Positions 822 through 13,328 of a DNA stretch of 14,326 nucleotides are shown here, in pieces; positions within the stretch are counted from its first letter, which is position 1, and every line of letters starts with the position of its first letter. The notes under the pieces were generated by a model. The model ran no database searches. It had not been told where the DNA came from and saw only the letters and a list, made by a program, of their open reading frames with translations. Made by a program: the position numbers and the translations under genes. Source of the stretch: Prolixibacteraceae bacterium (GTDB lineage Bacteria > Bacteroidota > Bacteroidia > Bacteroidales > Prolixibacteraceae); contig JAEUSS010000500.1 of NCBI GenBank assembly GCA_016788685.1, positions 1 to 14,326 of the forward strand, given 5' to 3'.

Positions 822-1595
822 ATGAGTAAAACATGTATTCTTTTCTGTAAATGTGGCGGAAGTGTAATAACTCCGGAGAAATCGGAACAAATCAAATTGC
901 TGCTCGGATCGCTGGCGGCCGATTTATATCAGCTCGACGATTTTTGTGGAATTGTGTTGAACCGCAAGGATTTTATCCGGGAAATCGACCGGAAGTATGA
1001 GCAAAAGATTATGGTGGCCTGCTATCCGCGGGCAATCCGGAATTTGCTGGAACAAAACGATCTGGCACTTTCAGGGTTGGAGGTGCTGAATTTCAGGGAA
1101 CTTTCAGTTCAGGAAATTGAATCAAAACTCCGGAATGATTTTGCGCTTACTGATGGAAAAACTCGGGGAATGACAGTAGAAAGCGGGCTGGACGTTCCGG
1201 CCTGGTATCCGGTGATCGATCAGCCGCTTTGCATCGATTGCGGAAAATGCTTTAAGTTTTGCTTGTTTGGCGTGTACACCTTTGGCGGAAAACAGCTGAA
1301 AGTGGTAAATCCGCTGGCCTGTAAAAATAACTGTCCGGCCTGCGGGAGAAACTGTCCGACTTCGGCCATTATTTTTCCGCGCCTGAAGGAAAACGGCGTT
1401 CTGGCTGGTGCCGAGCCGGGAATCGAATCACGGACAAAAGAAGTGGTTGCAGACAGCAACCTGATTGCAACACTCAATCAGCGGTCGGCATTACGGCGGA
1501 ATATTTTCAGAACCGGCTTGCTCGAACAGGCTGAGGCCGAACGTAAAAAAGCACTGGAAGAATTGAAAAACCTGAATAAAGAATCTCAGAATTGA
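822..1595 (+). CDS. HdrA-like N-terminus fused to a double [4Fe-4S] ferredoxin domain
   Basis: A 257-residue iron-sulfur protein. Residues 1-105 form a domain with C-x-CGG at 9-13, C42 and ACYPR at 67-70, recalling the cysteine-bearing N-terminal part of HdrA-like heterodisulfide reductase subunits. Residues 137-178 carry two cluster motifs: C137-x2-C140-x2-C143-x3-C147 and C167-x3-C171-x2-C174-x3-C178. The tail (about 218-257) is charged and probably helical. It has no signal peptide or membrane segment, so it is likely a cytoplasmic electron carrier or donor. It is the first gene of the plus-strand cluster, 71 bp before a radical SAM gene, which needs a low-potential reductant; supplying that enzyme is an inferred role. 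The frame opens at 726, but ATG 822 is preferred because the family-like MSKTCILFCKCGG begins there and a promoter-like TATTTTTG lies just upstream. Confidence 0.75.
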   Translation: MSKTCILFCKCGGSVITPEKSEQIKLLLGSLAADLYQLDDFCGIVLNRKDFIREIDRKYEQKIMVACYPRAIRNLLEQNDLALSGLEVLNFRELSVQEIESKLRNDFALTDGKTRGMTVESGLDVPAWYPVIDQPLCIDCGKCFKFCLFGVYTFGGKQLKVVNPLACKNNCPACGRNCPTSAIIFPRLKENGVLAGAEPGIESRTKEVVADSNLIATLNQRSALRRNIFRTGLLEQAEAERKKALEELKNLNKESQN

Positions 1596-1666
1596 ACGGA
1601 TCGCTGAGGTTGAATAATTGCTAAACTAAACAGGTCGGGACTTGTCCTGATCCACACCAAAATGAA

Positions 1667-2848
1667 ATGGGGTTATTAAAAAACATACTGATCAGGGCTG
1701 ACAAACGATGTTTGTACAAGTTCGTTGTTAACATGGGCATCAAAGGTGCCATGTCGTTTGCCCGGTTTCAGAAACGGCAGAAGAAAGGCGAATTTTTTCC
1801 GGCCTTTAATTTTATTTCGGTTACCGACGATTGCAACCTGAATTGTCAGGGATGCTGGGTGATGGGAAAGGAGAAAAACAGTCGCTTAAAACCCGGGCAG
1901 GTTGACCGGATCATCGGTGAAACAAAAAAGGCGGGCTCGTATTTCTTCGGAATTTTGGGTGGCGAACCGCTGTTGTACAAGCCTCTTCCGGAGCTGTTCA
2001 AAAAACATTCGGATTGTTATTTTCAGCTGTTTACCAACGGAACGCTTATTACTCCGGAAGTGGCGGAAACACTTCGCAAGTGTGCCAATGTCACTCCGCT
2101 GATCAGCTTTGAAGGAGACGAAGAAGTGGCCGACGTGCGTCGTGGCGGAAAGAATGTGTTTCAGTCGGCTAACCGTGGCATCGAAAATTGCATCCATGCC
2201 GGACTGATTACCGGAGTGGCCATCAGTGTTTGCAAGTCGAACCTCGAAATGGCGATGTCGCACGAATTTATTCAATCGCTGATTGACAAAGGAGTGGCTT
2301 ATTTGTGGTACTACATTTACCGCCCGGTTGGTGAGCGCCCGAATTATGAGCTGGCGCTGAGTTCAGATGAAATCCGCCAGCTTCGTCAGCACATGGTTGA
2401 CGCCCGGATGAAATACAGCTTGGCCATTATCGATACCTACTGGGATGCCGATGGAAATGGCATGTGTCCGGCAGCTGAAGGGCTGAGCCACCACATCAAT
2501 GCATCAGGTTTCGTTGAGCCGTGCCCGGTCATTCAGTTTGCAGCCGATCATGTGGACGAGAAACCGCTGGATCGTTTGTATGCCGAATCCGGATTCCTCC
2601 GTGATTTCAGAACTCAGATTCAGCAAAAGACCAAAGGGTGTGTGGTGATGGAAGACTCGCGCTGGCTGGCTGATTTTGTGGAGAAACATCAGGCCAAAAA
2701 TACTTCCGGAAGAAAAAACGAGCCGGAACGTTTGCGGTTGGCTCCCGAAACCAACAGCCATGGTTCATGTGACGTGATTCCGGAGAAAAGCCGGATTTAC
2801 CGCTTTGCCAAACGGCGGGCCTTTTTCGGTTTGGGAGCCTACGGCTGA
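1667..2848 (+). CDS. Radical SAM enzyme with SPASM-like C-terminal cysteine motif
   Basis: A 393-residue radical SAM protein. C56-NLN-C60-QG-C63 is the CX3CX2C loop that binds the SAM-cleaving [4Fe-4S] cluster; GGEP at 98-101 is the SAM-amine-binding motif, and FTNGTLI at 122-128 is the usual later strand. In the C-terminal third, C267-x13-G281-x4-C286 resembles the start of a SPASM/twitch motif, with C325 as a further possible ligand, so one auxiliary cluster is plausible. The N-terminal 45 residues and the last 20 (SRIYRFAKRRAFFGLG) are basic and hydrophobic and could sit on a membrane. The overlapping ATG at 1662 stops after five codons, so ATG 1667 is the start. It lies between a ferredoxin-like gene and an isoprenyl diphosphate synthase gene. 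By analogy with HpnH, the radical SAM enzyme that adenosylates hopene, a polyprenoid substrate is conceivable, but the substrate is unknown. Confidence 0.85.
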   Translation: MGLLKNILIRADKRCLYKFVVNMGIKGAMSFARFQKRQKKGEFFPAFNFISVTDDCNLNCQGCWVMGKEKNSRLKPGQVDRIIGETKKAGSYFFGILGGEPLLYKPLPELFKKHSDCYFQLFTNGTLITPEVAETLRKCANVTPLISFEGDEEVADVRRGGKNVFQSANRGIENCIHAGLITGVAISVCKSNLEMAMSHEFIQSLIDKGVAYLWYYIYRPVGERPNYELALSSDEIRQLRQHMVDARMKYSLAIIDTYWDADGNGMCPAAEGLSHHINASGFVEPCPVIQFAADHVDEKPLDRLYAESGFLRDFRTQIQQKTKGCVVMEDSRWLADFVEKHQAKNTSGRKNEPERLRLAPETNSHGSCDVIPEKSRIYRFAKRRAFFGLGAYG

Positions 2849-2861
2849 TTTACGATTAGAC

Positions 2862-2895
2862 GATTTACTATTTGGAGAAAAATAAATGGTAAATC
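2862..2895. repeat. Intergenic inverted repeat in the radical SAM / synthase gap
   Basis: GATTTACTATTT at 2862-2873 pairs with AAATGGTAAATC at 2884-2895 with one mismatch around a 10-nt loop. Related TTTACGATTA and AAATCGTAAA pieces extend the pattern outwards, so the 71-bp gap is almost entirely AT-rich palindromic sequence. It could be a weak hairpin or an intergenic repeat unit. There is no T-tract, so it is not a clear terminator. Confidence 0.4.
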
Positions 2896-2919
2896 GTAAA
2901 TAGATAAATAGTAAATAAT

Positions 2920-4491
2920 TTGAAGGTTAAAGAAAATACATTGGTTGTTCCGGAGCAGGCATTGACGCGAAACCGGTTGAGGAAAGCGGCCCGCGAACTG
3001 GTTGCCGAAAGGGGAATTTTACCACCGGTAAGCTTTGCTCAGATTAGCCGGATGGCTGACGAGGTTATTGCTGTAACCGGTTCGGACGGCCAGTTTACTG
3101 AATTTGCCATGGTGGTTTGCGGCAACGAAATCTGGCGTCCGGTTGTGGCGGCCACTCCCTATAACCGCCGGCTGTTGCTTTTGCCTCAATGCCTGAAGAA
3201 CAACAGTTCCTGCCATGCCGAGATTGATCAGCTTGGTTTGATCTGTGCCGGCTGTCAGAGCTGCCAGATAGATTCGATCCTGCAAAAGGCCGAGGAACTG
3301 GGCTATGCTACTTTGGTGGCCGAAGGGACCACCGTTGCCGTGAGCCTGGTTCAGGAAGGCACGGTTGACGCGGTGATTGGCGTCAGTTGCATGTCGGTGC
3401 TTCAGAAATCATTCGAGCCGGTTTCGCGCGCTGCCGTTCCGGTAATCGGGATTCCGTTGTTGTTCGAGGGCTGTGCGGAGACCGATGTGGATAACCGCTG
3501 GCTGAACGACGAGCTGACCGCTTTTCAGGAAAATGAGCGGTTTCGTACGGTTTCTGTTTCGGCCCTGAAGGAAAAAGTCCGGCTCTTCTTTTCCGAAGAA
3601 AAACTTGCCGAAGTTTTTGGTTCAGCCAACGACCGCACCTGCCAGCTGGCTATTCAGTCGATGCTTACCGGGGGACAGCGTATCCGGCCCTTGCTGACTG
3701 CTTTGGCGTATTCGGCCTATTCCGGAACAGTGTCTGAGGAGTTGATGACTTCCCTCTCCATCGTGGTGGAATGTTTTCACAAGGCTTCGCTCATTCACGA
3801 TGATGTGGAAGACGACGACGATTTTCGCTACGACACCGAAACCATTCATAAACAAAATGGCATTCCGGTTGCCATCAATACCGGCGATTTCCTGTTAGGA
3901 AAAGGCTACGAACTGCTCGGAAACCTGCCGCTCGATCCGGCCAGGCTGGCTGCCTGCTATCAGCTGGTTGCCGCCGGACATGTCGCTTTGTCGCTGGGAC
4001 AGGGTGCCGATCTGTTGGCCAGTTCGCACCAAACGATTCTTCCGGTTGACCAGCAGCTCGAAATCTTTGAGCGGAAGACTGGTTCTGCCATTCGGGTGGC
4101 CTTGCTGTTGGGCGCCGTTGCGGCTGATGCTCCGGAAGCTGATCTGGCGACCCTGAAAATATTTTCGGGATACTTCGGAATGGCCTACCAGATCAAAGAC
4201 GATCTGGATGAATTCCGTGAAGCCGGCGAACATACCCAGCCCGCCGATTATCCGCTGCTGCTTTCCCTTCTGGCGCAGGAGTCGGATGAGTCACTGTCGG
4301 CAAATCTTCGGTTGATGTATGCCGGGAATAACCGGAGCCGGATTCCGGAGCTGATACGCGAAAAGGAAACCGACCTGAAAGCGGAGCAACTTCTGCATGA
4401 ATATACCGACAAAGCTTACCGCGAACTCGATAAACTGGAGAACCTGAAAATGAAACTGAGTTTATACACGGTGCTGGGGAAAATTTTCTGA
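2920..4491 (+). CDS. DUF116 domain fused to an isoprenyl diphosphate synthase
   Basis: A 523-residue two-domain protein. Residues about 60-192 are a DUF116 domain: LLLLPQCL, GLICAGCQSC with C109/C112/C115, VAEGTT, VGVSC-like IGVSC with C157, and EGC-x-ETDVD with C185, a set of cysteines that could bind metal or an Fe-S cluster. Residues about 210-523 are a trans-isoprenyl diphosphate synthase, which condenses IPP with allylic diphosphates. They show GGQRIRP (251-257, GGKRxRP in most members), the first Asp-rich motif D294-D295-V-E-D298 followed by three more Asp, GDFLLG (322-327), ERKTG (384-388) and the second motif YQIKDDLDE (423-431). Small residues A289 and S290 just before the first motif are compatible with a C20 or longer product. 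Start is TTG 2920: an in-frame TAA at 2905-2907 leaves no ATG nearby. Only 10 bp separate it from the next gene. The fusion implies linked functions; what DUF116 does is unknown. Confidence 0.88.
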   Translation: MKVKENTLVVPEQALTRNRLRKAARELVAERGILPPVSFAQISRMADEVIAVTGSDGQFTEFAMVVCGNEIWRPVVAATPYNRRLLLLPQCLKNNSSCHAEIDQLGLICAGCQSCQIDSILQKAEELGYATLVAEGTTVAVSLVQEGTVDAVIGVSCMSVLQKSFEPVSRAAVPVIGIPLLFEGCAETDVDNRWLNDELTAFQENERFRTVSVSALKEKVRLFFSEEKLAEVFGSANDRTCQLAIQSMLTGGQRIRPLLTALAYSAYSGTVSEELMTSLSIVVECFHKASLIHDDVEDDDDFRYDTETIHKQNGIPVAINTGDFLLGKGYELLGNLPLDPARLAACYQLVAAGHVALSLGQGADLLASSHQTILPVDQQLEIFERKTGSAIRVALLLGAVAADAPEADLATLKIFSGYFGMAYQIKDDLDEFREAGEHTQPADYPLLLSLLAQESDESLSANLRLMYAGNNRSRIPELIREKETDLKAEQLLHEYTDKAYRELDKLENLKMKLSLYTVLGKIF

Positions 4492-4501
4492 TCTTTAATT
4501 C

Positions 4502-5395
4502 GTGGCTCAATCCTCTGCTCATATTCCTTTTTACAGGCAAATGATTGCTTTGCCCGGCCATGCCCTCGACTTGCTCGACGGACAGGGCAGGGAAGACGTT
4601 TCCCGATTTTTGATCAGCCAGCAAAATGCCGATGGCGGATTCCGCGATCGGGGAGGACGATCGGATTTGTATTATTCGCTGTTTGGCGGACTGATACTTG
4701 GAGCGAAGGGTAAAGAACCCGGAGAACCGCTCCCTGAGCGCGAAGCAGTCGAAGGGAGAATTGCAACTCCGGACTTAAAATTGAAACAATTCGTCGCTCG
4801 GCAGGCGGCTTCGGAAGTTCCCGGATTCATTGAACGATGCTGCCTGGTTTTGCTTCAGAAAGAATTAAACGCCGGGCGGACTTCGCGAATCAGATCCTTT
4901 TTCTGGTTGGCCAAGTCATTCCTGAAAGAGCGGTATTCCATCAATCTGTCGTACCGGAGTTTTGTGCTGTTCCTGACCCTGGATGCCGTTTTGCCCTTTC
5001 GCGGATTGCTGAAGTTGGGTGCGGGCACGATGCTGAAACGAACAACGGTCGATCAGCATTCGCCCTGTTCGGAAGTGGCGGCGCGCCTGTTTCTGCTGAA
5101 AATGGAGAGCCGGGACACCTCGGCTGAGGAGGATTTGTTGCGGTCGTTTGCCTGCGGATCGGGAGGCTTTAAAGCTTTTCAGCACCTTCAGCAAGCCGAC
5201 ATGCTCTCGACTGCTGTCGCCCTGTTCGCCCTTCGTTTTGCCGGATGCGATTTGCGTTTGCTCAAGCCCGGCTGCCTCGGGTTTATTCAGGAAAACTATT
5301 CGGAGGGTGCCTTTTTGTCGGGCGATGGCGATCCGACCAGGGATGTGGAATATACCTTTTACGGGCTGCTGGCGCTGGGCGTGCTGGCCGAGTGA
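4502..5395 (+). CDS. Small alpha/alpha-barrel prenyltransferase/terpene cyclase-like protein
   Basis: A 297-residue protein with prenyltransferase/squalene-oxidase-type repeats, as in protein prenyltransferase beta subunits and the beta domains of class II cyclases. Clear repeats are at about 33-67 (QNADGGF then RSDLYYSLFGGL), about 210-247 (GSGGFKAFQHLQQ) and about 256-296 (EGAFLSGDGDPTRDVEYTFYGLLALG). The last resembles the RDFYHTCYCLSGL segment of farnesyl/geranylgeranyl transferases, but the zinc-binding His is replaced by Tyr284 and no D-x-C zinc pair is apparent, so an ordinary protein prenyltransferase is unlikely. No DxDD cyclase motif is visible. It could be a degenerate cyclase, a partner subunit of the 596-residue cyclase at 8619, or a polyprenyl-binding protein. 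Start GTG 4502 lies 10 bp after the synthase stop, so the two are almost certainly co-transcribed; ATG 4541 is an alternative. A diverged copy of its last codons lies at 6081. Confidence 0.72.
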   Translation: MAQSSAHIPFYRQMIALPGHALDLLDGQGREDVSRFLISQQNADGGFRDRGGRSDLYYSLFGGLILGAKGKEPGEPLPEREAVEGRIATPDLKLKQFVARQAASEVPGFIERCCLVLLQKELNAGRTSRIRSFFWLAKSFLKERYSINLSYRSFVLFLTLDAVLPFRGLLKLGAGTMLKRTTVDQHSPCSEVAARLFLLKMESRDTSAEEDLLRSFACGSGGFKAFQHLQQADMLSTAVALFALRFAGCDLRLLKPGCLGFIQENYSEGAFLSGDGDPTRDVEYTFYGLLALGVLAE

Positions 5396-5402
5396 TCGTA
5401 GC

Positions 5403-5433
5403 CTGATCCGATGACTGGGGTTCATCGGATCAG
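5403..5433 (+). terminator. Perfect 12-bp hairpin after the small cyclase-like gene
   Basis: CTGATCCGATGA (5403-5414) and TCATCGGATCAG (5422-5433) form a perfect 12-bp stem with a 7-nt loop, starting 8 bases after the stop codon. There is no T-run after it, so it may be a terminator without a classical U-tract, an RNA-stabilising 3' hairpin, or a DNA site. The corresponding part of the right-hand direct repeat (8079) keeps only about half of the stem. Confidence 0.5.
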
Positions 5434-5483
5434 TAGCAAGCCAAAGTGAAGCTGAAACGCTTGCCCACGACTGTAGTTAGGGC
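5403..5483 (+). repeat. Left copy of the direct repeat flanking the accessory insert
   Basis: This segment is a diverged copy of 8079-8153. Shared blocks include GATGACTGG, ATCAGTAGC-AGCCAAA, TGAAG-TGAAACG and CTGTAGTT. The left copy includes the full hairpin and ends in one degenerate version of the dyad seen in the 41-bp array (5463-5478, 12 of 16 bases). With its partner it brackets the AT-rich insert carrying the toxin-antitoxin and nuclease-like genes. Confidence 0.7.
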
Positions 5484-5484
5484 A

Positions 5485-5781
5485 TTATTTTGTCGTCGAT
5501 GTGATGGAATTCTGCCGGTTATCCCCAATGGATAAAACGATGATTTCCGTTGCGGTGACCTGGTAAATGATGTGGTAGTTTCGAAGTATTTTTACTCTTA
5601 CATTCTCTTTATTGGTAGGCTTGCCGATTGAAGGGAATTTGCCGATCAGTCTCAGCGAATCTTTTATCAGTTCATCCAATTTTCGGCTGTAGGTTGGTGT
5701 TTGATTTCGATTATTCCAGAAGCTTAATATTTCTTTTCGTTCCTGCTGGGCTCGTTTAGTCCAGATTATTTGCCTAGCCAT
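5485..5781 (-). CDS. RelE/ParE-family toxin
   Basis: A 98-residue protein of the RelE/ParE toxin superfamily. Visible features are an N-terminal strand with W7 (IIWTKRAQQE), a helical part with SFWNNRN and YSRKLDELI, then FPSIGKPT, RVKILRNYHIIYQV and a C-terminal strand ending in SIGDNRQN. These match the ParE-like pattern of a helical hairpin followed by an antiparallel sheet, with the Arg/Tyr-rich strand typical of the family. Whether it cleaves mRNA on ribosomes (RelE-like) or poisons gyrase (ParE-like) cannot be told from sequence. Its start codon overlaps the end of the upstream antitoxin gene by 16 bp, so the two are translationally coupled, antitoxin first. It is the leftmost gene of the AT-rich insert, on the opposite strand to the isoprenoid-type genes, and probably stabilises this segment. 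Confidence 0.85.
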   Translation of the reverse strand: MARQIIWTKRAQQERKEILSFWNNRNQTPTYSRKLDELIKDSLRLIGKFPSIGKPTNKENVRVKILRNYHIIYQVTATEIIVLSIGDNRQNSITSTTK

Positions 5782-6002
5782 TCTTCAATGTCTTTGTCAG
5801 CTTGTTCTTCCGTTAAAAATTCACCGTTTTTGTATTGAAGTTGCCCTTCTTCCACCGCTTTTATCTGTTCTTCTGAAAGTTCATAGATACTAATGTCTGC
5901 TTCTTCGTTAGCAATTAACCGGAACATTTCTTCCAACAACTCGTTGTTTTCTGACTGATCAATTTTGTGGATCAATCTTTTTTTTAATTCTTTAGCTGTC
6001 AT
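5766..6002 (-). CDS. Antitoxin of the RelE/ParE-type pair
   Basis: A 78-residue acidic, helical protein encoded immediately upstream of, and overlapping, the toxin gene. The first 30 residues (MTAKELKKRLIHKIDQSEN and following) look like the short helical dimerisation/DNA-binding segment common in Bacteroidota antitoxins. The second half, with YELSEEQIKAVEEG, FLTEEQ and ending DIEEWLGK, is the flexible acidic part expected to wrap the toxin. Such antitoxins usually repress their own operon; an exact TAnnTTTG promoter element lies just upstream. I assign the role from size, charge, gene order and overlap; the antitoxin family name is not certain. Confidence 0.8.
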   Translation of the reverse strand: MTAKELKKRLIHKIDQSENNELLEEMFRLIANEEADISIYELSEEQIKAVEEGQLQYKNGEFLTEEQADKDIEEWLGK

Positions 6003-6025
6003 GTGATTTCGTTTTTACAAACTTA

Positions 6026-6057
6026 CAAAATTAGTTTATACGATTCCATTACCCGAA
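6026..6057 (-). promoter_or_regulatory. Candidate promoter of the toxin-antitoxin operon
   Basis: On the minus strand TAATTTTG (6033 down to 6026) matches the Bacteroidota -7 consensus TAnnTTTG exactly. TTCG (6057-6054), one base from the -33 TTTG, lies 20 bp upstream. The predicted start would leave a leader of under 20 nt before the antitoxin ATG at 6002. Motif-based inference. Confidence 0.45.
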
Positions 6058-6080
6058 ATTGCCTTTTCTGTTGCAACGGC

Positions 6081-6132
6081 GATGTGGAATATACTTTTTA
6101 CGGGCTACTGGCGCTGGGAACGATTCAGTAAA
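6081..6132 (+). pseudogene. Relic copy of the 3' end of the small cyclase-like gene
   Basis: Bases 6081-6118 match 5342-5379 at 36 of 38 positions and encode the same 13 residues, from DVEYTF through the final LALG. Both differences are silent third-position changes. After the match the frame continues briefly as TIQ and stops at 6129-6131. A weaker match (TGCCTTTT) continues to about 6060, with indels. The silent differences suggest that this piece came from a functional, diverged allele and was then truncated. Confidence 0.75.
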
Positions 6133-6223
6133 TTAGTATTGATTTTAATGAGAAGTTGCTCAATTCAATTATTGGAGAAGTTTTTAAAAATTATTACTAT
6201 CCATTAATTTAAAGAAGTCTGCT

Positions 6224-7837
6224 TTATTTATTCCAATTCTTGTAAGCACCTGATCTAATTGCTTCAAGAGCTGTTCTGATTCTTTCTCTATAGATGTATT
6301 TTGTTGGTAGATCCCTGAGTAAGGCCATTGCATTATTGAACTTTTCAACCTCACGGGAAAATTCTCCATGTTTTCCAAAGTTTCCTTTTTCAAATTCTCT
6401 AATAATTCGCTTATTTCTTGCCTCAAAGTCAAGTTTGCTTGTTCTTCTATCTTCGTCAAGTCTTTCTGATAATTCGATTTCTTCAATTCTAAATTTTTCC
6501 GGTGAATTTCTGAGATTTTCTTCAATTCTTGCGAGACTTTCTCCTGCTCTTGTTGAATCTCGTTCAATGTTTTTGAATAACTCTCTTTTTCTATTTTCAA
6601 ATCTTCGCTCAATTTGTTCTCTAGTTGATCCAAAATTTCTTTCTTTTTGCTCCAACTCTCTCTGCTCTTCATTAATTGCTCTAATAGCAATTTCTTCGTT
6701 TTCAATTGTTCTGTCAAGATATTCCTCTTTTCCTCCAAGTAAGAGTTCTGCATCTCGATAGGATTCTGTATCGCATTCAATTTTTTCTCTCTTTGTATTA
6801 TATCGTTTTTCCAGAGATCTAACGTTTTCTTGAAATTTACGTTCTTCTTGTTCAACTCGCTTTTTCTCTGATTCAAAGCTTGCAGTTTCATTTGTAAGCT
6901 TTTCCGCAATTTCAGTTCTTCTATCCTCGCATATTCTGTTCCATTTGTCTCTATGTCCCTTTGTACTTTCCTCAATTCTTGATATTTCTGATCTAAAATC
7001 TCGTTCAATTTGAGTGTAGTATTCTGCTCCCAAACATTTTTTAATAGTTGATATGAGGTTTCCAATTTGCGCTGCTCTGCACTTGTAAGATTCCTCAAAA
7101 AGTCTTCTTTGGATTTCATCAATAGGTGGTATTCCCTCTGTACTTGATTTGGAAATTGGTATGTATGGAGTGATTTCTTGCTCATAATTGTATATCCATT
7201 TTGTGTGGTTAGTACTGTTTAAAGCTTTACCTATTGCCTCTGGTGAATCTTTGGGGATGGTTATCTCAATAGTGTCAATCCCTAATCTACTTAGTTTTAT
7301 TTTTTTTTCTTCAGAAACCTTGTGTGTTGCCACCAGCTCAATAAATAATATTGGATTCTGATTTTTATCAAAGAAAGTGACATCTGGCTTAAGCAAAAGA
7401 TACTTACTCGATGACTCATCATTCTTCCCATAAGAAATTCTGCCATTTTCGTCTTCATAGAAGTATCTTTCAATTCCGACAGAATATGCTTCGACAACTT
7501 TTGCTTCAGAAATCAAATTAGGCCAGCCTTCAACTCCTTTAGGAGGATATTTATAAACGGCAGGAACCTTTATGCTTTTGTTAATCTGAAGTATTTCTTT
7601 GGCTAATTTATGGCGATATGTTTCATCCGAATAAGTACATTTTTTCCCATCCCTTAATGCTTTTACATCATGCCTAAAGTATGGTCGAATGTTAGGATGC
7701 TTAGGCTTTACAGCTTGCATTTCTCTTTTACATCCCATGCAAAAGTATCCTTTCCGTCCTCTTTCAACATTACCAATAAAAACTTCCTCATCTTGGAGAT
7801 TTAGAGCGTAAACATTATCGATATGATTTTCTTCCAT
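6224..7837 (-). CDS. CoiA-like putative PD-(D/E)xK nuclease with long coiled-coil tail
   Basis: A 537-residue protein in two parts. Residues 1-220 look like a competence-protein-CoiA-like region: a small zinc-ribbon-like start (C33-MG-C36, H56, C67), ETYRHKLAKEIL at 72-83, then a restriction-nuclease-like core with KPDV (150-153), a strand with IELVATHKV (166-174) and a following LGIDTIEI. P151-D152 and E167 are candidate catalytic residues, although the expected Lys of ExK is not in the classical place. Residues about 245-500 are rich in Glu, Lys and Arg and should form a long coiled coil, ending with a small domain (FNNAMALLRDLPTKY). The codons follow a purine-first (RNY) pattern in this frame, supporting it over the overlapping frame. 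AT-rich and on the minus strand next to a toxin-antitoxin pair, it is likely acquired cargo, perhaps for phage defence; that role is inference. Confidence 0.7.
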   Translation of the reverse strand: MEENHIDNVYALNLQDEEVFIGNVERGRKGYFCMGCKREMQAVKPKHPNIRPYFRHDVKALRDGKKCTYSDETYRHKLAKEILQINKSIKVPAVYKYPPKGVEGWPNLISEAKVVEAYSVGIERYFYEDENGRISYGKNDESSSKYLLLKPDVTFFDKNQNPILFIELVATHKVSEEKKIKLSRLGIDTIEITIPKDSPEAIGKALNSTNHTKWIYNYEQEITPYIPISKSSTEGIPPIDEIQRRLFEESYKCRAAQIGNLISTIKKCLGAEYYTQIERDFRSEISRIEESTKGHRDKWNRICEDRRTEIAEKLTNETASFESEKKRVEQEERKFQENVRSLEKRYNTKREKIECDTESYRDAELLLGGKEEYLDRTIENEEIAIRAINEEQRELEQKERNFGSTREQIERRFENRKRELFKNIERDSTRAGESLARIEENLRNSPEKFRIEEIELSERLDEDRRTSKLDFEARNKRIIREFEKGNFGKHGEFSREVEKFNNAMALLRDLPTKYIYRERIRTALEAIRSGAYKNWNK

Positions 7838-8009
7838 AAATTAGCTAGACCAATTACTGTCGTTGGATGTAAATTTAAGTAAAATTACGTGATTATGATA
7901 GGGATTCTACTGTCTGTAAAATACGCAATATTTGTGTGCCTTAACTAATGCTTTTCATACAAAAGACATGTCTCTTGCGAATAAAAATATCCAAGCCAAG
8001 ACTTCGAAT
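7838..8009. other. AT-rich leader region of the nuclease-like gene, nothing identified
   Basis: This stretch precedes the minus-strand CoiA-like gene and ends where the relic of the large cyclase gene begins. I see no gene, RNA or strong hairpin. A TAATTTTA on the minus strand is a 7-of-8 match to TAnnTTTG but lacks a convincing -33 partner. The wider gene-free stretch up to 8618 holds the relic, the direct repeat, the 41-bp array and a hairpin, listed separately. Confidence 0.5.
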
Positions 8010-8070
8010 TTACCACTCCTTTGCTTCAATAGCGCAATGCTACCGATTATTAGGAGGGGCGGCTTTCATC
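8010..8070 (+). pseudogene. Dead 61-bp relic of the 5' coding part of the large cyclase gene
   Basis: Bases 8010-8070 match 8662-8722, codons 15-35 of the large cyclase gene, at 54 of 61 positions. In the cyclase frame the relic has two TAG stops (8030-8032 and 8051-8053), so it is non-functional. It is cut off on the right just before the direct repeat at 8079. It is one of two relics of neighbouring genes inside the insert. Confidence 0.8.
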
Positions 8071-8078
8071 CTGGGCAA

Positions 8079-8153
8079 CTGATCGGATGACTGGAGATCA
8101 GTAGCGAGCCAAATTGAAGATGAAACGGTCAACCACACCTGTAGTTTGGGCCA
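8079..8153 (+). repeat. Right copy of the direct repeat flanking the accessory insert
   Basis: A diverged partner of 5403-5483. It has lost the centre and one arm of the 12-bp hairpin, keeping CTGATC and GATCAG, but continues in register through ATCAGTAGCGAGCCAAA into the first unit of the 41-bp array. The shared order indicates common descent, not chance similarity. Confidence 0.7.
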
Positions 8154-8499
8154 AAATTGAAAAAGGAGCTCAACCACACCTGTAGATTGGGTGAAATTGA
8201 AAAAAGGAGCTCAACTACACCTGTAGTTTGGCTCAAAATAAAAAAAGGAAGTCAACCACACCTGTAGTTAGTCCCAAAATGAAAAAAGGAAGCCAACCAC
8301 ACCTGTAGTTTTGTCCAAATTGGAAAAAGGAAGCCAACCACACCTGTAGTTTGTTCCAAAATAAAAAAAGGAAGCCAACCACACCTGTAGTTTTGTCCAA
8401 AAAGAAAAAAGGAGGTCGGCCACACCTGTGGTTGGGTTCAAAAAATGAAATACAGATCGGCCACACCGGCGTAAACTTCAAAAATAGTTCCGTTGGGAC
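8131..8499 (+). repeat. Array of nine tandem 41-bp repeats with a central dyad
   Basis: Units begin at 8131, 8172, 8213, 8254, 8295, 8336, 8377, 8418 and 8459, an exact 41-bp period throughout; the ninth is degenerate. Each unit has the core AACCACACCTGTAGTT followed by a G/C-poor spacer with AAAAAAGGA. The core is a near-palindrome, AACcACA-CC-TGTaGTT, with one mismatched pair. The third unit restores perfect symmetry by C to T on the left, and the eighth restores the central pair by A to G on the right. Units are contiguous with no variable spacers, so this is not CRISPR. The period is not a multiple of three and no credible protein is encoded. It lies 120 bp upstream of the large cyclase gene. 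Function unknown; an operator array is possible because 41 bp is about four helical turns. Confidence 0.9.
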
Positions 8500-8517
8500 T
8501 GGCAGATCCGTCTGTTT

Positions 8518-8537
8518 CCGAGAACCTTATTTCTCGG
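8518..8537 (+). other. 7-bp hairpin in the leader of the large cyclase gene
   Basis: CCGAGAA (8518-8524) and TTCTCGG (8531-8537) form a perfect stem with the loop CCTTAT, about 80 bp before the ATG at 8619. No T-tract follows directly. It might be a weak terminator closing off the repeat array or a leader structure; short hairpins like this also arise by chance. Confidence 0.35.
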
Positions 8538-8618
8538 GGTCTTATTGCTTTCGTGAACGGATGTGTATGGGCAAAAATCTTCCATCTTTATTATCTTGCA
8601 GCTCAAATTGAAGTCCAC

Positions 8619-10409
8619 ATGAACGAATCTACAGAACACCTCGCCTCCCAACTCTCCGAGCTTACCACGCTGTTGCTTCAAAAGCGCAATGCTGCCGGTT
8701 ATTGGGAGGGGCGGCTTTCATCGAGCGCGCTGGGGGTGGCGGTGGCCATTGCAGCGCTGCATTTTCACGATGCGGCTGAAAACGCTTCCGAAATTTCTTC
8801 CGGATTAACCTGGCTGGATGCGCATGTCAATACCGATGGCGGATTTGGCGATTCGCCGGCCAGTGTGAGCAATGTGAGCACCAGCTTGCTTTGTTACGCG
8901 GCGGTAAAGGTGTGCAACCCGCAGGCCAATCTGCTCCCGAAAATTGGGGGCTATCTGCGTTCGCAGCACATCGACGTCCATTCGGAGCAACTGATTCCGG
9001 CGATACTCGATTTTTACCAGACCGACCGCACGTTTTCGGTGCCCATCCTGACCATGTGTGCCCTGTGCGGCGTTCCCGGCAAAGAAGCGTTCGATTCCAT
9101 TCCGCAATTGCCCTTCGAGTTGTCGTTGTTGCCCCGCAACTTCTACCGCATGCTCAACCTGAGTGTGGTGAGTTACGCCATTCCGGCGCTGGTGGCGGTG
9201 GGCATTGCAATTTTCAGGTTTAAGCAGCGGAAAAACCCGCTGATGCGGCTGGTGCGCGAAGCTTCGGTGAACCGCTCGCTGGCTTTGCTCCGGAAGATTC
9301 AGCCGGAAAGTGGCGGCTACCTCGAAGCCATTCCTCTGACGGCTTTTGTTTGCCTCTGCCTGATCGGATCGGGCTACCGCAAGCTCGACGTGGTGCGCGA
9401 CGGAATGAATTTCCTGAAACGTACCCAGCGCGAAGACGGCAGCTGGCCCATCGACATCGATTTGTCGACCTGGGTGACTACGCTCGCAGTGAAAGCGGTG
9501 AAAAATATTCCGGAGGTATTGACAACGACCGACCGGCAGCAACTGACCGGGCATTTGCTGGGCATTCAGAATAAACAGGTTCATCCGTTTAACGGGACGC
9601 AACCGGGTGGCTGGGGCTGGACCTCGTACCCGGGGTCGGTGCCCGACGGCGACGATACGCCCGGAACAATCCTGGCGCTGCTGGCCCTGAATCCGGAAAA
9701 TCCGGAGCCGGTACGCAAACCGGTTGTCGCGGCCTGCAACTGGCTGCTGCAATTGCAGAACAACGACGGCGGATTTCCAACCTTTTCGCGCGGATGGGGC
9801 AAGCTGCCGTTCGACCAGAGTTGTTCCGACCTGAGCGGGCACGCGGTTCTGGCTCTGGCGAAAGCCACCCAGGCTTTTGGCGATTCGCTGAGCCGCAAAC
9901 AACATTCCGGAATTAAAAAAGCGTGGGTGAAGGCGCTGATTTACCTGAAAAAGCAACAGCACCCGACGGGTTACTGGCTGCCGCTGTGGTTTGGCAACCA
10001 ACATACTTCAGATCATACGAACCCGGTATACGGCACGGCGCGGGTTACGGCTTACCTGAATGAAACGCTGAACACCGGCTTCGGAAAAGAATACGAGGTA
10101 ATCCTGAAACTGATGATCGGGCAGGGGTGCAAATTCCTGGCTTCGGTTCAGAATGAGGATGGCAGCTGGGGTGGCGCGAAGGGAGTGCCGGGAAGCATCG
10201 AAGAAACTTCGCTGGCGGTGACGGCCCTGGTCCGGAATGGTTTTCAGGCCGAATGTGCTTCCGGAATCAACTGGCTGACTGCCAAACTAAAATCCGACGG
10301 GTTGGTGGCTTCGCCCATCGGCCTGTATTTCGCCTCACTGTGGTACGACGAAGAAATGTATCCGCTGACCGCCTGCCTGGAATGCCTGGCTACGATTAAC
10401 GATTTGTGA
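8619..10409 (+). CDS. Squalene-hopene-cyclase-like class II terpene cyclase
   Basis: A 596-residue member of the squalene-hopene cyclase superfamily, which cyclises polyprenyl substrates by protonation and is usually membrane-associated. Landmarks in family order are GYWEGRL (27-33), NTDGGFG (71-77), LLPRNFYRMLNLSVVSYAIP (about 170-189), QREDGSWP with DLSTW (270-285), QPGGWGW (328-334), the catalytic D343-G-D345-D346 (DxDD), QNNDGGF (380-386), SDLSGHAVLAL (403-413), the GYWLPLWFGN to NPVYGTARV stretch (451-476) and QNEDGSWGG with EETSLAVTAL (511-537). Length is slightly below the roughly 630 residues of typical cyclases. The DxDD motif predicts activity, but the product cannot be read from sequence. 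The frame is open from 8493, but ATG 8619 gives the natural N-terminus and the upstream extension resembles no family member. It belongs with the synthase and small cyclase-like genes from which the insert separates it; the repeat array may now influence its expression. Confidence 0.87.
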   Translation: MNESTEHLASQLSELTTLLLQKRNAAGYWEGRLSSSALGVAVAIAALHFHDAAENASEISSGLTWLDAHVNTDGGFGDSPASVSNVSTSLLCYAAVKVCNPQANLLPKIGGYLRSQHIDVHSEQLIPAILDFYQTDRTFSVPILTMCALCGVPGKEAFDSIPQLPFELSLLPRNFYRMLNLSVVSYAIPALVAVGIAIFRFKQRKNPLMRLVREASVNRSLALLRKIQPESGGYLEAIPLTAFVCLCLIGSGYRKLDVVRDGMNFLKRTQREDGSWPIDIDLSTWVTTLAVKAVKNIPEVLTTTDRQQLTGHLLGIQNKQVHPFNGTQPGGWGWTSYPGSVPDGDDTPGTILALLALNPENPEPVRKPVVAACNWLLQLQNNDGGFPTFSRGWGKLPFDQSCSDLSGHAVLALAKATQAFGDSLSRKQHSGIKKAWVKALIYLKKQQHPTGYWLPLWFGNQHTSDHTNPVYGTARVTAYLNETLNTGFGKEYEVILKLMIGQGCKFLASVQNEDGSWGGAKGVPGSIEETSLAVTALVRNGFQAECASGINWLTAKLKSDGLVASPIGLYFASLWYDEEMYPLTACLECLATINDL

Positions 10410-10463: not shown

Positions 10464-10889
10464 CTATTTCATAATCACCGCCGGACTGACCTTTATTTCC
10501 ATCAGGTATCCTTTGCAAACGCCTTTCACGGTCAGCTCGCGGCCAATGGTCAGCTCCTGAAGGACGGGCTGGTTTGCAGCGGCCCAGCTGCTGTCGAGCT
10601 GGCAGCTGATTCCTTCCATTTCGTTTTCCAGGATCAGCAGGTGGGTTCCGTCCTGAAGTGTCGAGTAGGCTGCCAGTTTGCCCTTTATCTCGAGTACTTT
10701 TTCGCTGTATTTGGCTGCTGCCGCCGCCTCATCGTCCAGAAATGCGGAAAGCAGCGCGGCCGCTTCCACCCGGAAGTCGGTCTGGGCCCGGCTCACATCG
10801 GCATGAGGTTTGAAAAACATCTTCAGACCAATTCCTGCTCCAAGAACTACCAGAAAAAGAATGATCAGGATGATATATTTTGTTTTCAT
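10464..10889 (-). CDS. Membrane-anchored OB-fold (tRNA_anti-like) protein
   Basis: A 141-residue protein with one N-terminal transmembrane segment (about residues 5-27, IILIILFLVVLGAGIGL) and a C-terminal OB-fold-like domain. The pattern is typical of the tRNA_anti-like family found in Bacteroidota lipoproteins and membrane proteins: LLSAFLDDEAAAAAKY, then VLEIKGKL, LILENEMEGISCQL, LTIGRELTVKGVCKGYL and a short closing strand. The soluble domain is probably periplasmic. These proteins do not necessarily bind nucleic acid and their role is unknown. It is the last gene of a five-gene minus-strand operon, 18 bp after the YceI gene. Confidence 0.75.
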   Translation of the reverse strand: MKTKYIILIILFLVVLGAGIGLKMFFKPHADVSRAQTDFRVEAAALLSAFLDDEAAAAAKYSEKVLEIKGKLAAYSTLQDGTHLLILENEMEGISCQLDSSWAAANQPVLQELTIGRELTVKGVCKGYLMEIKVSPAVIMK

Positions 10890-10907
10890 ATTTAAAAAGT
10901 GAGTGAG

Positions 10908-11459
10908 TTACTGCCCGAAAGGCTGGTAGCTGGCTTTTACGGTAACTTCCATTTCTTTCCCGATTTTGTCGCGCACCAGCGCCGGAATGCCGATTCCGTA
11001 ATCTTCAGGCACCACTTTGAATTTTGAATTTCCGGTGAGTTTGCCGTTTTCGAGGCCGAGCGTTGCCGGAACGGTGATGGTCTTTTCGACCCCATGCACC
11101 GTCAGCTGGCCGGTAATTTGAATATTGGCGACCGGCGCTTTCAGCATCTCTTTATTAAACCCGACGATTTTTCCGTTGAATTTGGCTTTCGGGAACTTGG
11201 TGCTTTCCATGTAGTTTTCGTTAAAGTGCTCTTCCATCAGCGCCCGTTTGAAATGGAAGGTGGTCATAATCGCCTGAAACGCGATTTCACCTGTTTCGCC
11301 GTTGAGGATGGTTACTGCCTCGTTGCTTTCGCCCAGGATGTCTTCCATGGGGGTGGAGGAGAAGAATGAAATGTAGGCGTTTTTCGAGATGAATTTACCT
11401 TGTGCAAATGCTCCGGCTGTTGCAAGCAGGAAGATCGCGATAATTAAATTTTTGAACAT
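10908..11459 (-). CDS. YceI-family periplasmic protein
   Basis: A 183-residue YceI-family protein with a signal peptide (MFKNLIIAIFLLATAGAFAQ). YceI proteins have an elongated lipocalin-like barrel, and structurally studied members hold isoprenoid chains such as polyprenyl diphosphate or ubiquinone. Family landmarks are the early strand FISKNAYISFFSSTP, the TTFHFKRALMEEHFNENYMES segment, FPKAKFNGKI, the strand with ITGQLTVHGVEKTITVPA, and a C-terminal strand before KASYQPFG. The frame is open from 11537, but ATG 11459 places the signal peptide at the N-terminus and leaves a 20-bp gap after the DUF5777 gene. A periplasmic isoprenoid carrier so close to an isoprenoid-type cluster is suggestive but unproven, since YceI and DUF5777 also occur together elsewhere in Bacteroidota. 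Confidence 0.88.
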   Translation of the reverse strand: MFKNLIIAIFLLATAGAFAQGKFISKNAYISFFSSTPMEDILGESNEAVTILNGETGEIAFQAIMTTFHFKRALMEEHFNENYMESTKFPKAKFNGKIVGFNKEMLKAPVANIQITGQLTVHGVEKTITVPATLGLENGKLTGNSKFKVVPEDYGIGIPALVRDKIGKEMEVTVKASYQPFGQ

Positions 11460-11479
11460 GGCTTCGGTGTTTGATGAAG

Positions 11480-12370
11480 TTAAAAAGCGAAAACTCTGGA
11501 AATGTTGAATCCGAGGTGGATGTCGCCGTTGCCCCATTTGCCGGTGGTTTGCGGGATGAACGATGCTTCGCGCATGCCCAGCGAATTGGTCAGCATGATC
11601 TGGAAGACGTGTCCTCCGGTTTCGATGTCGACTCCCAGCGAACAGGCATTGTAGTACCTTGTTTCCAGGAACTTTGCGTTCGGATTGTAGGTGTAATAAT
11701 ATTCGGCGTTGAGTGAGAGTCGTTTGGTCAGTTTGTAGCGGGCTCCGGCTCCCAGCGCAAAGATGTCGTTCTGGTCGAGTTCGGTTTTTACCAGGTTGCG
11801 GTGGATGTAGGTAGGCGTAAGCTGAGCCGACAGGTTTTCGGTGAACTTACGGGCAATCAGCAGTTGGCTGACATAGGCCAGACGTGAAGAAAAGTAGTTG
11901 GTTGTCCCTTCCGGACGCTCCGGAAATTTCAGGGTGTTCAGTTCAACAGAGGTGAAATAACTTAAATGGATGGGCATGGAGCTTGCTCCTGAAGACTGGC
12001 GCAAAATACGGAATTTCGCAAACGCATCGTAGGTTTTATTGAAGCTGCCACGGCCGGCACCCAGCATCAGCCAATCTTTTACGCCGTATTCGAGGCTGAA
12101 ATGAATGGTCGACTGATCGAGTCCCCACAACCCGTAAGCTCCGTTATTGAGCGTGCCAAACCGGTGGGAAATGCGGAACTCCAGTTGCTTTTGTTTCATC
12201 TGTTCGATGGAATGCCCGTTGATGATGCGTGTTGATTTGAAAGTCGCGGTGGCATAGTCAACGGTTGGTTTGGACTCTGCATCGAGTAAAGCGTCAAGGT
12301 CCTGGCTTTTTACGTTTCCGGAGAAAAGCGCCAGGCATAATCCGGTGAAAATAACTAATCGTTTTTTCAT
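11480..12370 (-). CDS. DUF5777-type outer-membrane beta-barrel protein
   Basis: A 296-residue protein with a signal peptide (MKKRLVIFTGLCLALFSGNVKSQ) and alternating hydrophobic/polar strands typical of outer-membrane barrels. It shows the pattern of the DUF5777 family: FKSTRIINGHSIEQ, the strand with QLEFRISHRFGTLN, LWGLDQSTIHFSLEYG, GAGRGSF-x-KTYDAFAKFRIL, LLIARKFTENLSAQLTP, and a final aromatic residue (VFAF) as expected for barrel assembly. The function is unknown; in Bacteroidota the family is often encoded beside haem-binding lipoproteins and YceI proteins, as here. Gaps of 11 and 20 bp to its neighbours indicate co-transcription. Confidence 0.8.
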   Translation of the reverse strand: MKKRLVIFTGLCLALFSGNVKSQDLDALLDAESKPTVDYATATFKSTRIINGHSIEQMKQKQLEFRISHRFGTLNNGAYGLWGLDQSTIHFSLEYGVKDWLMLGAGRGSFNKTYDAFAKFRILRQSSGASSMPIHLSYFTSVELNTLKFPERPEGTTNYFSSRLAYVSQLLIARKFTENLSAQLTPTYIHRNLVKTELDQNDIFALGAGARYKLTKRLSLNAEYYYTYNPNAKFLETRYYNACSLGVDIETGGHVFQIMLTNSLGMREASFIPQTTGKWGNGDIHLGFNISRVFAF

Positions 12371-12381
12371 TGATCCGAAGT

Positions 12382-12762
12382 TTAGTTGTTGGGAGTATTG
12401 TTGTCAATCCATTTTTGCAGCTGGCTGATTTCGCAGTCGGTCAGTTTCCCTCCGCCTTTGGGCATGGCCGAAAATCCTCCGGCATGCTTTACCGAGCCCA
12501 TTAGTTTCCCGTTTTTAACCTGAACCAGCACGTCCGAATAGTTCTGGAGTCTGATTCCGTCGCCCGAGCTTGCCGCATTGGAGTTGGAATGGCAGGTGTA
12601 GCAGGAAGCCTGGAGAATCGGGCTCACTGTTCCGGAAAACGTAACATCGGTCAGGTTGCAGCCTGTCGAAATCTGGGGATAGAGTTTTTCTTCGGTGTCG
12701 TAGTAGCAGCCTGTCGTTGTTGCAACAAACAGGATGAGCAGAAGGGCATGTAATCGTTTCAT
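12382..12762 (-). CDS. Haem c-type lipoprotein with a CXXCH site
   Basis: A 126-residue predicted lipoprotein. MKRLHALLLILFVATTTGC gives a signal peptide ending in a lipobox-like TTGC. One CXXCH haem-attachment motif is visible (CYTCHS), with a downstream M in SAMPKGGG that could be the distal haem ligand. The end, LTDCEISQLQKWIDNNTP, is the usual last helix of these small planctomycete-type cytochrome domains. ATG 12762 is chosen over the longer frame to 12828 because the signal peptide starts there and the gene then begins 10 bp after its upstream neighbour. It is probably an electron-transfer or oxygen-related sensor/carrier at the outer membrane. Confidence 0.8.
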   Translation of the reverse strand: MKRLHALLLILFVATTTGCYYDTEEKLYPQISTGCNLTDVTFSGTVSPILQASCYTCHSNSNAASSGDGIRLQNYSDVLVQVKNGKLMGSVKHAGGFSAMPKGGGKLTDCEISQLQKWIDNNTPNN

Positions 12763-12772
12763 CGTTGCCGGT

Positions 12773-13186
12773 TTATGGTTGGGTATTGAAGGATGTGTTG
12801 CAGGTTGTTTCTTTGGCGCCCTGTTCAATCCACTGGCGGATGATGATGCGCTTGTTCATCGGAAGGGCATTGCCCGGAGGCATCAGTTCAGTGGTGCTGG
12901 TGATAGCTTTGTAGGCTTTGCTTTTATCGGCATTACCCGGCGTAATGGCTTCCATGATGCTGGTGTAGTTTGAAAAATTGTAGTCTCCTTCGGAGTTGTT
13001 GGCATCATGGCAACCGCTGGTTGCACAACTGTTCATAAAGATAGGGAGCACCTCCTCGGTGAAGCATACCTGCGGCATCTGGTCAGCGGGGATACCTTCG
13101 TGCTGGCAGGAGTTTGCCATGAATAACACAGAACCTAGCAAGAGAATCAGCGAGGCTGATAAAAATCCGGATTTTGAAATTTTCAT
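12773..13186 (-). CDS. Haem-binding-type lipoprotein with a CX4CH site
   Basis: A 137-residue predicted lipoprotein, first gene of the minus-strand operon. The signal region (SASLILLLGSVLFMANSC) ends in a plausible lipobox cysteine. The domain resembles its neighbour: CFTEEVLPIFMNSCATSGCHD contains C-x4-CH in place of CXXCH, a spacing known from some multihaem cytochromes, so covalent haem is possible but less certain. MPPGNALPM supplies a candidate Met ligand, and IIIRQWIEQGAKE is the terminal helix. ATG 13186 is preferred to the longer frame from 13258, which would bury the signal peptide. The two adjacent genes probably arose by duplication of one haem domain. Confidence 0.75.
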   Translation of the reverse strand: MKISKSGFLSASLILLLGSVLFMANSCQHEGIPADQMPQVCFTEEVLPIFMNSCATSGCHDANNSEGDYNFSNYTSIMEAITPGNADKSKAYKAITSTTELMPPGNALPMNKRIIIRQWIEQGAKETTCNTSFNTQP

Positions 13187-13328
13187 ATCAGGAATTGTTA
13201 AATGAGATAATAACAATTGAAACAGAAAAATGGCAGACGGAAAGTCGGACTTTATCAAATTAAACGATATGAAAGGCCAACGATGTCCTGAAGTAACTGT
13301 ATACTTATCAGTTTTATTGTGGAAACGA

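Follow-up and report, generated by a model that had tools for sequence, protein, structure and literature searches.

Five genes, G1–G5, in a 14,326-nucleotide stretch of a Prolixibacteraceae genome (contig JAEUSS010000500.1, assembly GCA_016788685.1; the window) encode a pathway that is real, conserved and, as far as our searches of the open-licence PubMed Central (PMC) literature show, undescribed. The genes lie on the plus strand at positions 822-10409 and belong to one operon, in which a lineage-specific insert splits G4 from G5. The cluster very probably makes a cyclised isoprenoid independent of squalene. We estimate a probability of about 0.5 that G1–G5 form a dedicated squalene-independent pathway of the type "prenylate, then cyclise". 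The original prediction for the window had treated the five closely spaced genes as a unit that makes a modified cyclic isoprenoid. The unit holds, as the operon recurs across phyla, and such a product is the most likely one.

Domain composition of the operon

G1 is separated from G2 by 71 bp, G2 from G3 by 71 bp, and G3 from G4 by 10 bp. G1 (822..1595, plus strand) is a ferredoxin/HdrA-like protein of 257 residues. It scores under the Pfam cut-offs of all eight Fer4-type models listed and is identified as a 2[4Fe-4S] protein because of eight near-invariant cysteines (C137, C140, C143, C147, C167, C171, C174 and C178), which are kept in every covering sequence (70 or 71 of the 71 aligned). G2 (1667..2848, plus strand) belongs to the radical SAM enzymes (Radical_SAM, PF04055, 60.4 bits, cut-off 29.5). 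Its CxxxCxxC triad (C56/C60/C63) is present in 74/74 covering sequences, and three more cysteines (C267/C286/C325) are invariant in 78/78. Judged from this pattern, the additional cysteines likely bind an auxiliary cluster. Among the solved relatives of G2, SkfB, a peptide maturase, ranks best (E 1.2e-21); cytosylglucuronate decarboxylase and a macrocyclic tetraether synthase from archaea are others. The analogy to HpnH drawn earlier is weak, with a score of 38.7 bits against a cut-off of 225 for the HpnH model TIGR03470.

G3 (2920..4491, plus strand, TTG start) is a fusion of DUF116 (PF01976, 112.2 bits, cut-off 25) to a trans-isoprenyl-diphosphate-synthase-like (trans-IDS-like) domain (polyprenyl_synt, PF00348, 130 bits, cut-off 27). 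In the predicted model, residues 84-180 of the DUF116 domain form an alternation of helices and four strands; structure searches with G3 are dominated by matches of the synthase domain rather than of DUF116. The portion of PMC5898192 available to us argues for an electron-transfer role of DUF116, and the modelled fold is compatible with the flavodoxin-like structure proposed there. The same portion remarks in one sentence on a DUF116-polyprenyl synthetase fusion in Pirellula staleyi (Psta_0175), which is the same domain fusion as in G3, and does not describe the cluster itself.

G4 (4502..5395, plus strand, GTG start) scores under the cut-offs of both toroid models, and is identified as a single-domain (alpha/alpha) toroid, kin of terpene cyclases and protein prenyltransferase beta subunits, because its structure model has the alpha/alpha toroid fold of the latter. 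G4 lacks a conserved DxDD motif and has single invariant acidic residues only. Its near-invariant residues include D55, Y57, Y58, D233, D281, E283 and Y284 and no Cys or His, in a register not verified on structures; the zinc ligands of protein prenyltransferase beta subunits are Asp, Cys and His.

G5 (8619..10409, plus strand) starts with ATG, with a possible alternative TTG at 8493, and is a two-domain cyclase (SQHop_cyclase_C, PF13243, 99.4 bits, cut-off 26.1; SQHop_cyclase_N, PF13249, 65.5 bits, cut-off 26.2). Its DxDD motif, DGDD in the window, is present in 64/64 covering sequences (65 aligned), and the combination of DxDD with the SQHop fold assigns G5 by sequence to the class II terpene cyclases. 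The nearest solved relative is the squalene-hopene cyclase (SHC) of A. acidocaldarius (E 4.9e-35), and SsDMS-type entries are among the solved relatives of both G4 and G5. Both proteins resemble the class II cyclases MstE, which according to the titles of its structure entries binds prenylated dihydroxybenzoates, and drimenyl diphosphate synthase in fold or sequence. The cluster differs from these systems in that G4 is without a conserved DxDD and two toroid proteins are encoded in one operon.

Conservation of the five genes across phyla

The near set comprises 61 genomes, the window's own and 60 relatives. The G3 fusion is present in 29 of them (E below 1e-90), and one more genome (G022), with G4 and G5 at a contig start, was counted as the 30th holder. 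A PF13243 cyclase is encoded in 29/30 near holders and, as a weak match, in 1/31 of the other near genomes. A scan of named species gave 576 candidates, which take in any relative at 1e-3. The 80 loci listed come, by record titles that are in some cases doubtful, from Bacteroidota, Planctomycetota, Verrucomicrobiota, Lentisphaeria, Kiritimatiellae, Acidobacteriota and Riflebacteria.

Where contigs allow, the relatives read retain the order G1-G2-G3-G4-G5 at G3 identities as low as about 36%. All five genes stand at one locus in 35 of the 80 listed loci, 27 of them in exact G1–G5 order, and these complete loci are from Bacteroidota, Planctomycetota, Verrucomicrobiota, Acidobacteriota and Riflebacteria. 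Of the 43 listed loci whose contig extends 2.5 kb or more upstream of G3 and 4 kb or more beyond it downstream, 25 have the complete set; the genes are thus not unlinked in relatives, the outcome that would have spoken against the original prediction. The remaining listed loci, mostly of Verrucomicrobiota, have G3 alone or with some partners, and part of them are cut by contig ends. In part of the Verrucomicrobiota, the cluster genes are dispersed yet mostly co-occur.

Of 29 genomes without G5 at the fetched G3 locus, 24 encode it elsewhere (one as a fragment), and in two (G080 and G086) the best hit is a weaker one of 84-87 bits. G2 was sought in 16 genomes that lack it at the locus. In six of these, its position is taken by a different radical SAM family, C13; five of the six are without G2, and one has a 171.9-bit match only. 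Eight of the other ten hold G2 elsewhere (seven Verrucomicrobiota and one Planctomycetota). The replacement is seen at Phycisphaerae-type loci (L078, L089, L090, L109, L118 and L125). The one C13 member scanned has TIGR04013, of B12-binding type, as its best model and shows no B12 domain of Pfam.

Pairwise distance matrices from the 35 complete loci correlate among the five proteins at 0.66-0.93 (G3-G5 0.86, G3-G4 0.93), and the highest value of 500 shuffles is 0.30. The correlation shows joint inheritance, not function, and shared host descent contributes to it. In a phylum sample of 118 genomes, which apart from the window's own represent other lineages, G3 and G5 each occur only in the own genome; the sample mainly shows joint absence. 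A chance neighbourhood is rejected by the recurrence of the gene order in other phyla, together with the linkage and co-occurrence.

Altered acceptor site of the G3 synthase domain

The first and second aspartate-rich motifs (FARM and SARM) and the KT motif are intact in 101/101 G3 copies. The second Arg of the RRG motif is retained in 0/101 and is replaced by Tyr in 99 copies, His in one and Asn in one. In structures of farnesyl diphosphate synthase, this Arg is part of the site for isopentenyl diphosphate (IPP). The GKxxGxD loop that follows SARM is found in 0/101 copies. The canonical comparators were one paralogue in the window's own genome (L002) and aligned solved synthases: the Arg is present in both, and the loop is present in the paralogue. 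In the GGKRxRP motif of G3, the Lys is kept in 69/101 copies and the last Arg in 101/101. Ala at position -5 and Phe at -8 relative to FARM are found in 101/101; by the usual rules for these residues, the chain would presumably be about C20-C25 long, which we do not use as evidence. Two further PF00348 genes are present in the genome besides G3.

With the allylic aspartate-rich motifs kept, the second RRG Arg replaced and the GKxxGxD loop absent, we infer that G3 may transfer the prenyl chain to a non-IPP acceptor, a proposal from sequence to which we give roughly even odds. With the same two changes, G3, which the original prediction assigned as an isoprenyl diphosphate synthase, does not resemble an ordinary one in its motifs. 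There is precedent for such use of the fold: Ord1, ComQ, PalQ and ChrPC are trans-IDS-like enzymes with tryptophan acceptors, and ChrPC also bears a cyclase domain, and in it the prenyl chain is then cyclised (PMC13290415). The likeness is that of a trans-IDS fold acting on a non-IPP acceptor, which for G3 is a proposal. Unlike these enzymes, which have tryptophan substrates, the cluster has a fused DUF116 domain and iron-sulfur and radical SAM proteins, and no precursor peptide was recognised.

Distinction from hopanoid biosynthesis

The hopanoid pathway (hpnCDE, shc, hpnH) shares with the cluster the fold family of two-domain DxDD cyclases and a radical SAM enzyme. It differs in its cyclase, in its squalene-type synthases, which holders of the cluster often lack, and in HpnH, which G2 by its model is not. 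G5 scores 72.3 bits against a cut-off of 431.1 with the hopene-cyclase model TIGR01507, and G5 proteins of other clusters score 82.4 (L128) and 98.1 bits (L101). From the holders of G5, six other cyclases were fetched and four scanned; a true SHC (638.3-695.4 bits) coexists with G5 in at least four genomes (G069, G070, G074 and G090).

The squalene/phytoene synthase family, PF00494, is absent from 6/30 near holders (G005, G006, G024, G026, G030 and G052), which are 96-100% complete. It is likewise absent from 20 of 30 genomes behind the listed loci (covering 30 of the 80, with completeness unstated), including Bacteroidota, Riflebacteria, Planctomycetota, Lentisphaeria and Kiritimatiellae. No PF00494 gene was found in Plebeiobacterium sediminum strain AAT, a holder of the cluster. 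One of the 30 named genomes (G232), in which PF00494 is present, is seemingly the same as a near-set genome (G004). Since PF00494 is absent in many holders, squalene is unlikely to be a general substrate. The earlier statement that squalene genes are missing is correct for the window and not for the genome, which has one PF00494-family gene on another contig (G000:C67).

Proposed pathway and alternatives

In the "prenylate, then cyclise" pathway that we propose, an allylic diphosphate would come from housekeeping synthases. G3, through its synthase-like domain, would ionise it and attach the prenyl chain to a non-IPP acceptor. G2, the radical SAM enzyme, may make or activate this acceptor, with electrons delivered via G1 and the fused DUF116 domain. 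G5, as a DxDD protonase, perhaps together with the single-domain toroid G4, would then fold the chain into rings. The step order, the non-IPP acceptor and the electron route are inferred; G1, G2 and DUF116 are consistent with redox or radical chemistry on either the acceptor or the product.

Several observations weigh against this pathway. In fold comparisons of the predicted G3 model, ordinary geranylgeranyl diphosphate (GGPP) synthases and Ord1 match equally well, with tied Z scores. One missing Arg and a missing loop are no proof that IPP binding is lost, given the GGKRxRP residues that are kept. No conserved gene for an acceptor protein or peptide was recognised beside the cluster, and the neighbours scanned include none for an aromatic acceptor. 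Genome-wide, three (G075, G076 and G079) of the 29 genomes asked gave no G5, and two (G088 and G215) of the ten holders without G2 or a substitute at the locus gave no G2. Most holder genomes are metagenome-assembled genomes (MAGs), so absences, including those of PF00494, are partly uncertain.

A conventional order of steps, nearest to the view of the original prediction, is possible, with odds well short of even. G3 would make a polyprenyl diphosphate of C20 or longer from IPP, G5 would cyclise the diphosphate directly, in a step like that of drimenyl or copalyl diphosphate synthases, and G2 would tailor the ring. The intact FARM, SARM and KT motifs, the GGKRxRP Lys, the predicted fold shared with GGPP synthases, and the SsDMS-type entries among the solved relatives of G4 and G5 agree with this order, whereas the RRG replacement and the loss of the GKxxGxD loop in all 101 copies, and the two further synthases already in the genome, argue against it. 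A hopanoid or sterol-like pathway of divergent type acting on squalene would account for both SQHop domains of G5; it is rejected as hardly credible, considering the TIGR01507 score of G5 next to those of the coexisting true SHC and the absence of squalene/phytoene synthases in many holders.

We consider it improbable that the radical SAM enzyme, the trans-IDS-like prenyltransferase and the cyclases modify a peptide or protein, as ChrPC does on tryptophan. ChrPC, ComQ and PalQ provide the precedent, SkfB is the nearest solved relative of G2, and GcvH-like proteins are encoded beside the cluster in 12/88 loci. However, the gaps of 71, 71 and 10 bp in the window's operon are too small for a precursor gene, and among the 12 largest families of small open reading frames (ORFs), from 71 loci, no precursor with conservation outside the genus was recognised next to the cluster. 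All but one of these families are limited to the genus and its family, and many probably represent neighbouring genes read in another frame; the one family not so limited is a repetitive ORF at L070, L073 and L115. A peptide precursor beside the cluster is therefore not supported by the small-ORF families. Reductive coupling of two prenyl groups, in which G3 would fuse two allylic diphosphates with electrons from DUF116 into a squalene-like hydrocarbon for G5 and so substitute for squalene synthase, appears quite improbable. The altered IPP site beside an intact allylic site, the fused redox-type DUF116 with the electron transfer proposed in the available part of PMC5898192, SHC as the nearest solved structure to G5, and the absence of PF00494 from many holders speak for it. 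On the other side, it leaves G1 and G2 unexplained, and a PF00494 gene is present in 24/30 near and 10/30 named holders. We know of no precedent for such coupling by the G3 fold.

No described pathway with the make-up of G1–G5 was found in searches of the open-licence PMC literature, and within that scope the earlier claim that no characterised pathway has this composition holds. The closest published statement found is the one in PMC5898192 on the Pirellula staleyi fusion. The part of PMC4982196 available to us reports antiSMASH-detected terpene-cyclase and polyprenyl-synthase genes in three planctomycetes and does not describe the cluster.

Neighbouring genes and a possible electron-transfer partner

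Neighbours were compared across 88 loci (the 80 listed and 8 relatives), with one representative annotated per family. The families are CobW-like GTPases (C5, 24/88 loci), PQQ/BamB-like propellers (C6, 19/88), NapH-like polyferredoxins (C7, 12/88), GcvH-like proteins (C8, 12/88), ferredoxins (C9, 11/88), NHL-like proteins (C10, 10/88), NifS-like proteins (C11, 8/88), fused NuoE-NuoF (C12, 7/88) and the radical SAM family C13 (6/88). The C7 loci are Bacteroidales-type (L050, L052, L055, L056, L058, L059, L062 and L032) or from a Bacteroidota MAG (L122), Acidobacteriia (L087), Riflebacteria (L111) and a planctomycete (L128). As a family with about one copy per genome, C7 would rarely be placed within 10 kb by chance. 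A C7-like gene occurs in 28/30 near holders versus 9/31 near genomes without the cluster, with kinship not removed. In the window's genus it lies away from the cluster, and the electron-transfer module also exists alone. The link between the cluster and the module is suggestive, and these cases do not support an obligate one. Nor is an obligate link with the CobW-like family supported, since 15/61 near genomes match and the own genome does not.

The electron-transfer genes adjoin the cluster in several lineages, and for this reason we speculate, at low odds, that the product is a new cyclised, prenylated redox lipid or cofactor serving a little-known membrane electron-transfer complex, in effect a counterpart of a quinone system. 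The parts of the complex would be the fused NuoE-NuoF, ferredoxins, NapH-like polyferredoxin and PQQ/BamB-like beta-propellers. In Bacteroidales and Riflebacteria, as well as in an Acidobacteriia MAG and one planctomycete, genes for these parts directly adjoin the cluster.

A conserved operon of propellers, NHL-like protein, ferredoxin, NapH-like protein, NuoE-NuoF and a GltD-like flavoprotein is located at L131 (956-16511), L132, L134, L138 and L130. It lies apart from the cluster in Prolixibacteraceae and adjoins it in other lineages; on the own contig G000:C289 (L130) only part of it is seen. In Planctomycetota and Verrucomicrobiota (L065, L072, L076, L082, L085, L095 and L106), genes for a GcvH-like protein and/or a CobW-like GTPase are positioned upstream of G1, often with a small G1-like gene and in some loci with NifS-like genes nearby. 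Two Bacteroidia MAGs (L126 11190-11918, L127 14310-15350) have an ArsP_1 permease gene next to the cluster or to the CobW-like gene that neighbours it.

Insert between G4 and G5 and flanking DNA

The insert begins with genes that are not part of the pathway. A ParE/RelE-like toxin (5485..5781, minus strand, PF05016 44.2 bits) is overlapped at its start by a small ORF of 78 residues, a probable antitoxin (5766..6002, minus strand). A second copy of the G4 3' end follows at 6003..6131 on the plus strand, where the ORF reads GDVEYTFYGLLALG; positions 6081-6118 are 94.7% identical to 5342-5379 at the G4 3' end. Toxin-antitoxin DNA (5510-6083) recurs between G4 and G5 in a few relatives within the genus (L033, L039 and L136, and in part L036). 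From this arrangement, the module seems to integrate at the G4 end. A coiled-coil protein (6224..7837, minus strand), also outside the pathway, is DUF7828-like (PF25165, 19.6 bits, below the cut-off of 25.7), and we take it to be CoiA-like; a DNA match to its gene was found in none of the fetched loci. A partial copy of the G5 5' end (8648-8722) is located at 7996..8070 on the plus strand, with 84% identity in 75 bases. Just before G5, a 41-bp unit is repeated in tandem in about 7.7 copies (8128..8486). Similar arrays lie between G4 and G5 in L033 and L036. The elements between G4 and G5 look like later insertions, the two genes being adjacent or overlapping in other relatives.

On the other strand, 3' of G5, positions 10464-13258 encode a tRNA_anti-like protein, presumably a YceI-like and a beta-barrel-like protein, and two small proteins, of which one bears a c-type haem motif (CYTCH). 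The block is retained in several relatives of the genus.

Biological significance

The five-gene isoprenoid pathway is present in at least five phyla, including rumen Bacteroidaceae and the sequenced strain of Plebeiobacterium sediminum. This breadth implies a lipid or cofactor of general use, so far untied to genes within the open-licence PMC literature. If G3 indeed uses a non-IPP acceptor, the cluster would represent a new, redox-coupled branch of "prenylate, then cyclise" chemistry. For geochemistry, cyclic terpenoids of squalene-free anaerobes would be biomarkers that surveys of hopene cyclase genes overlook.

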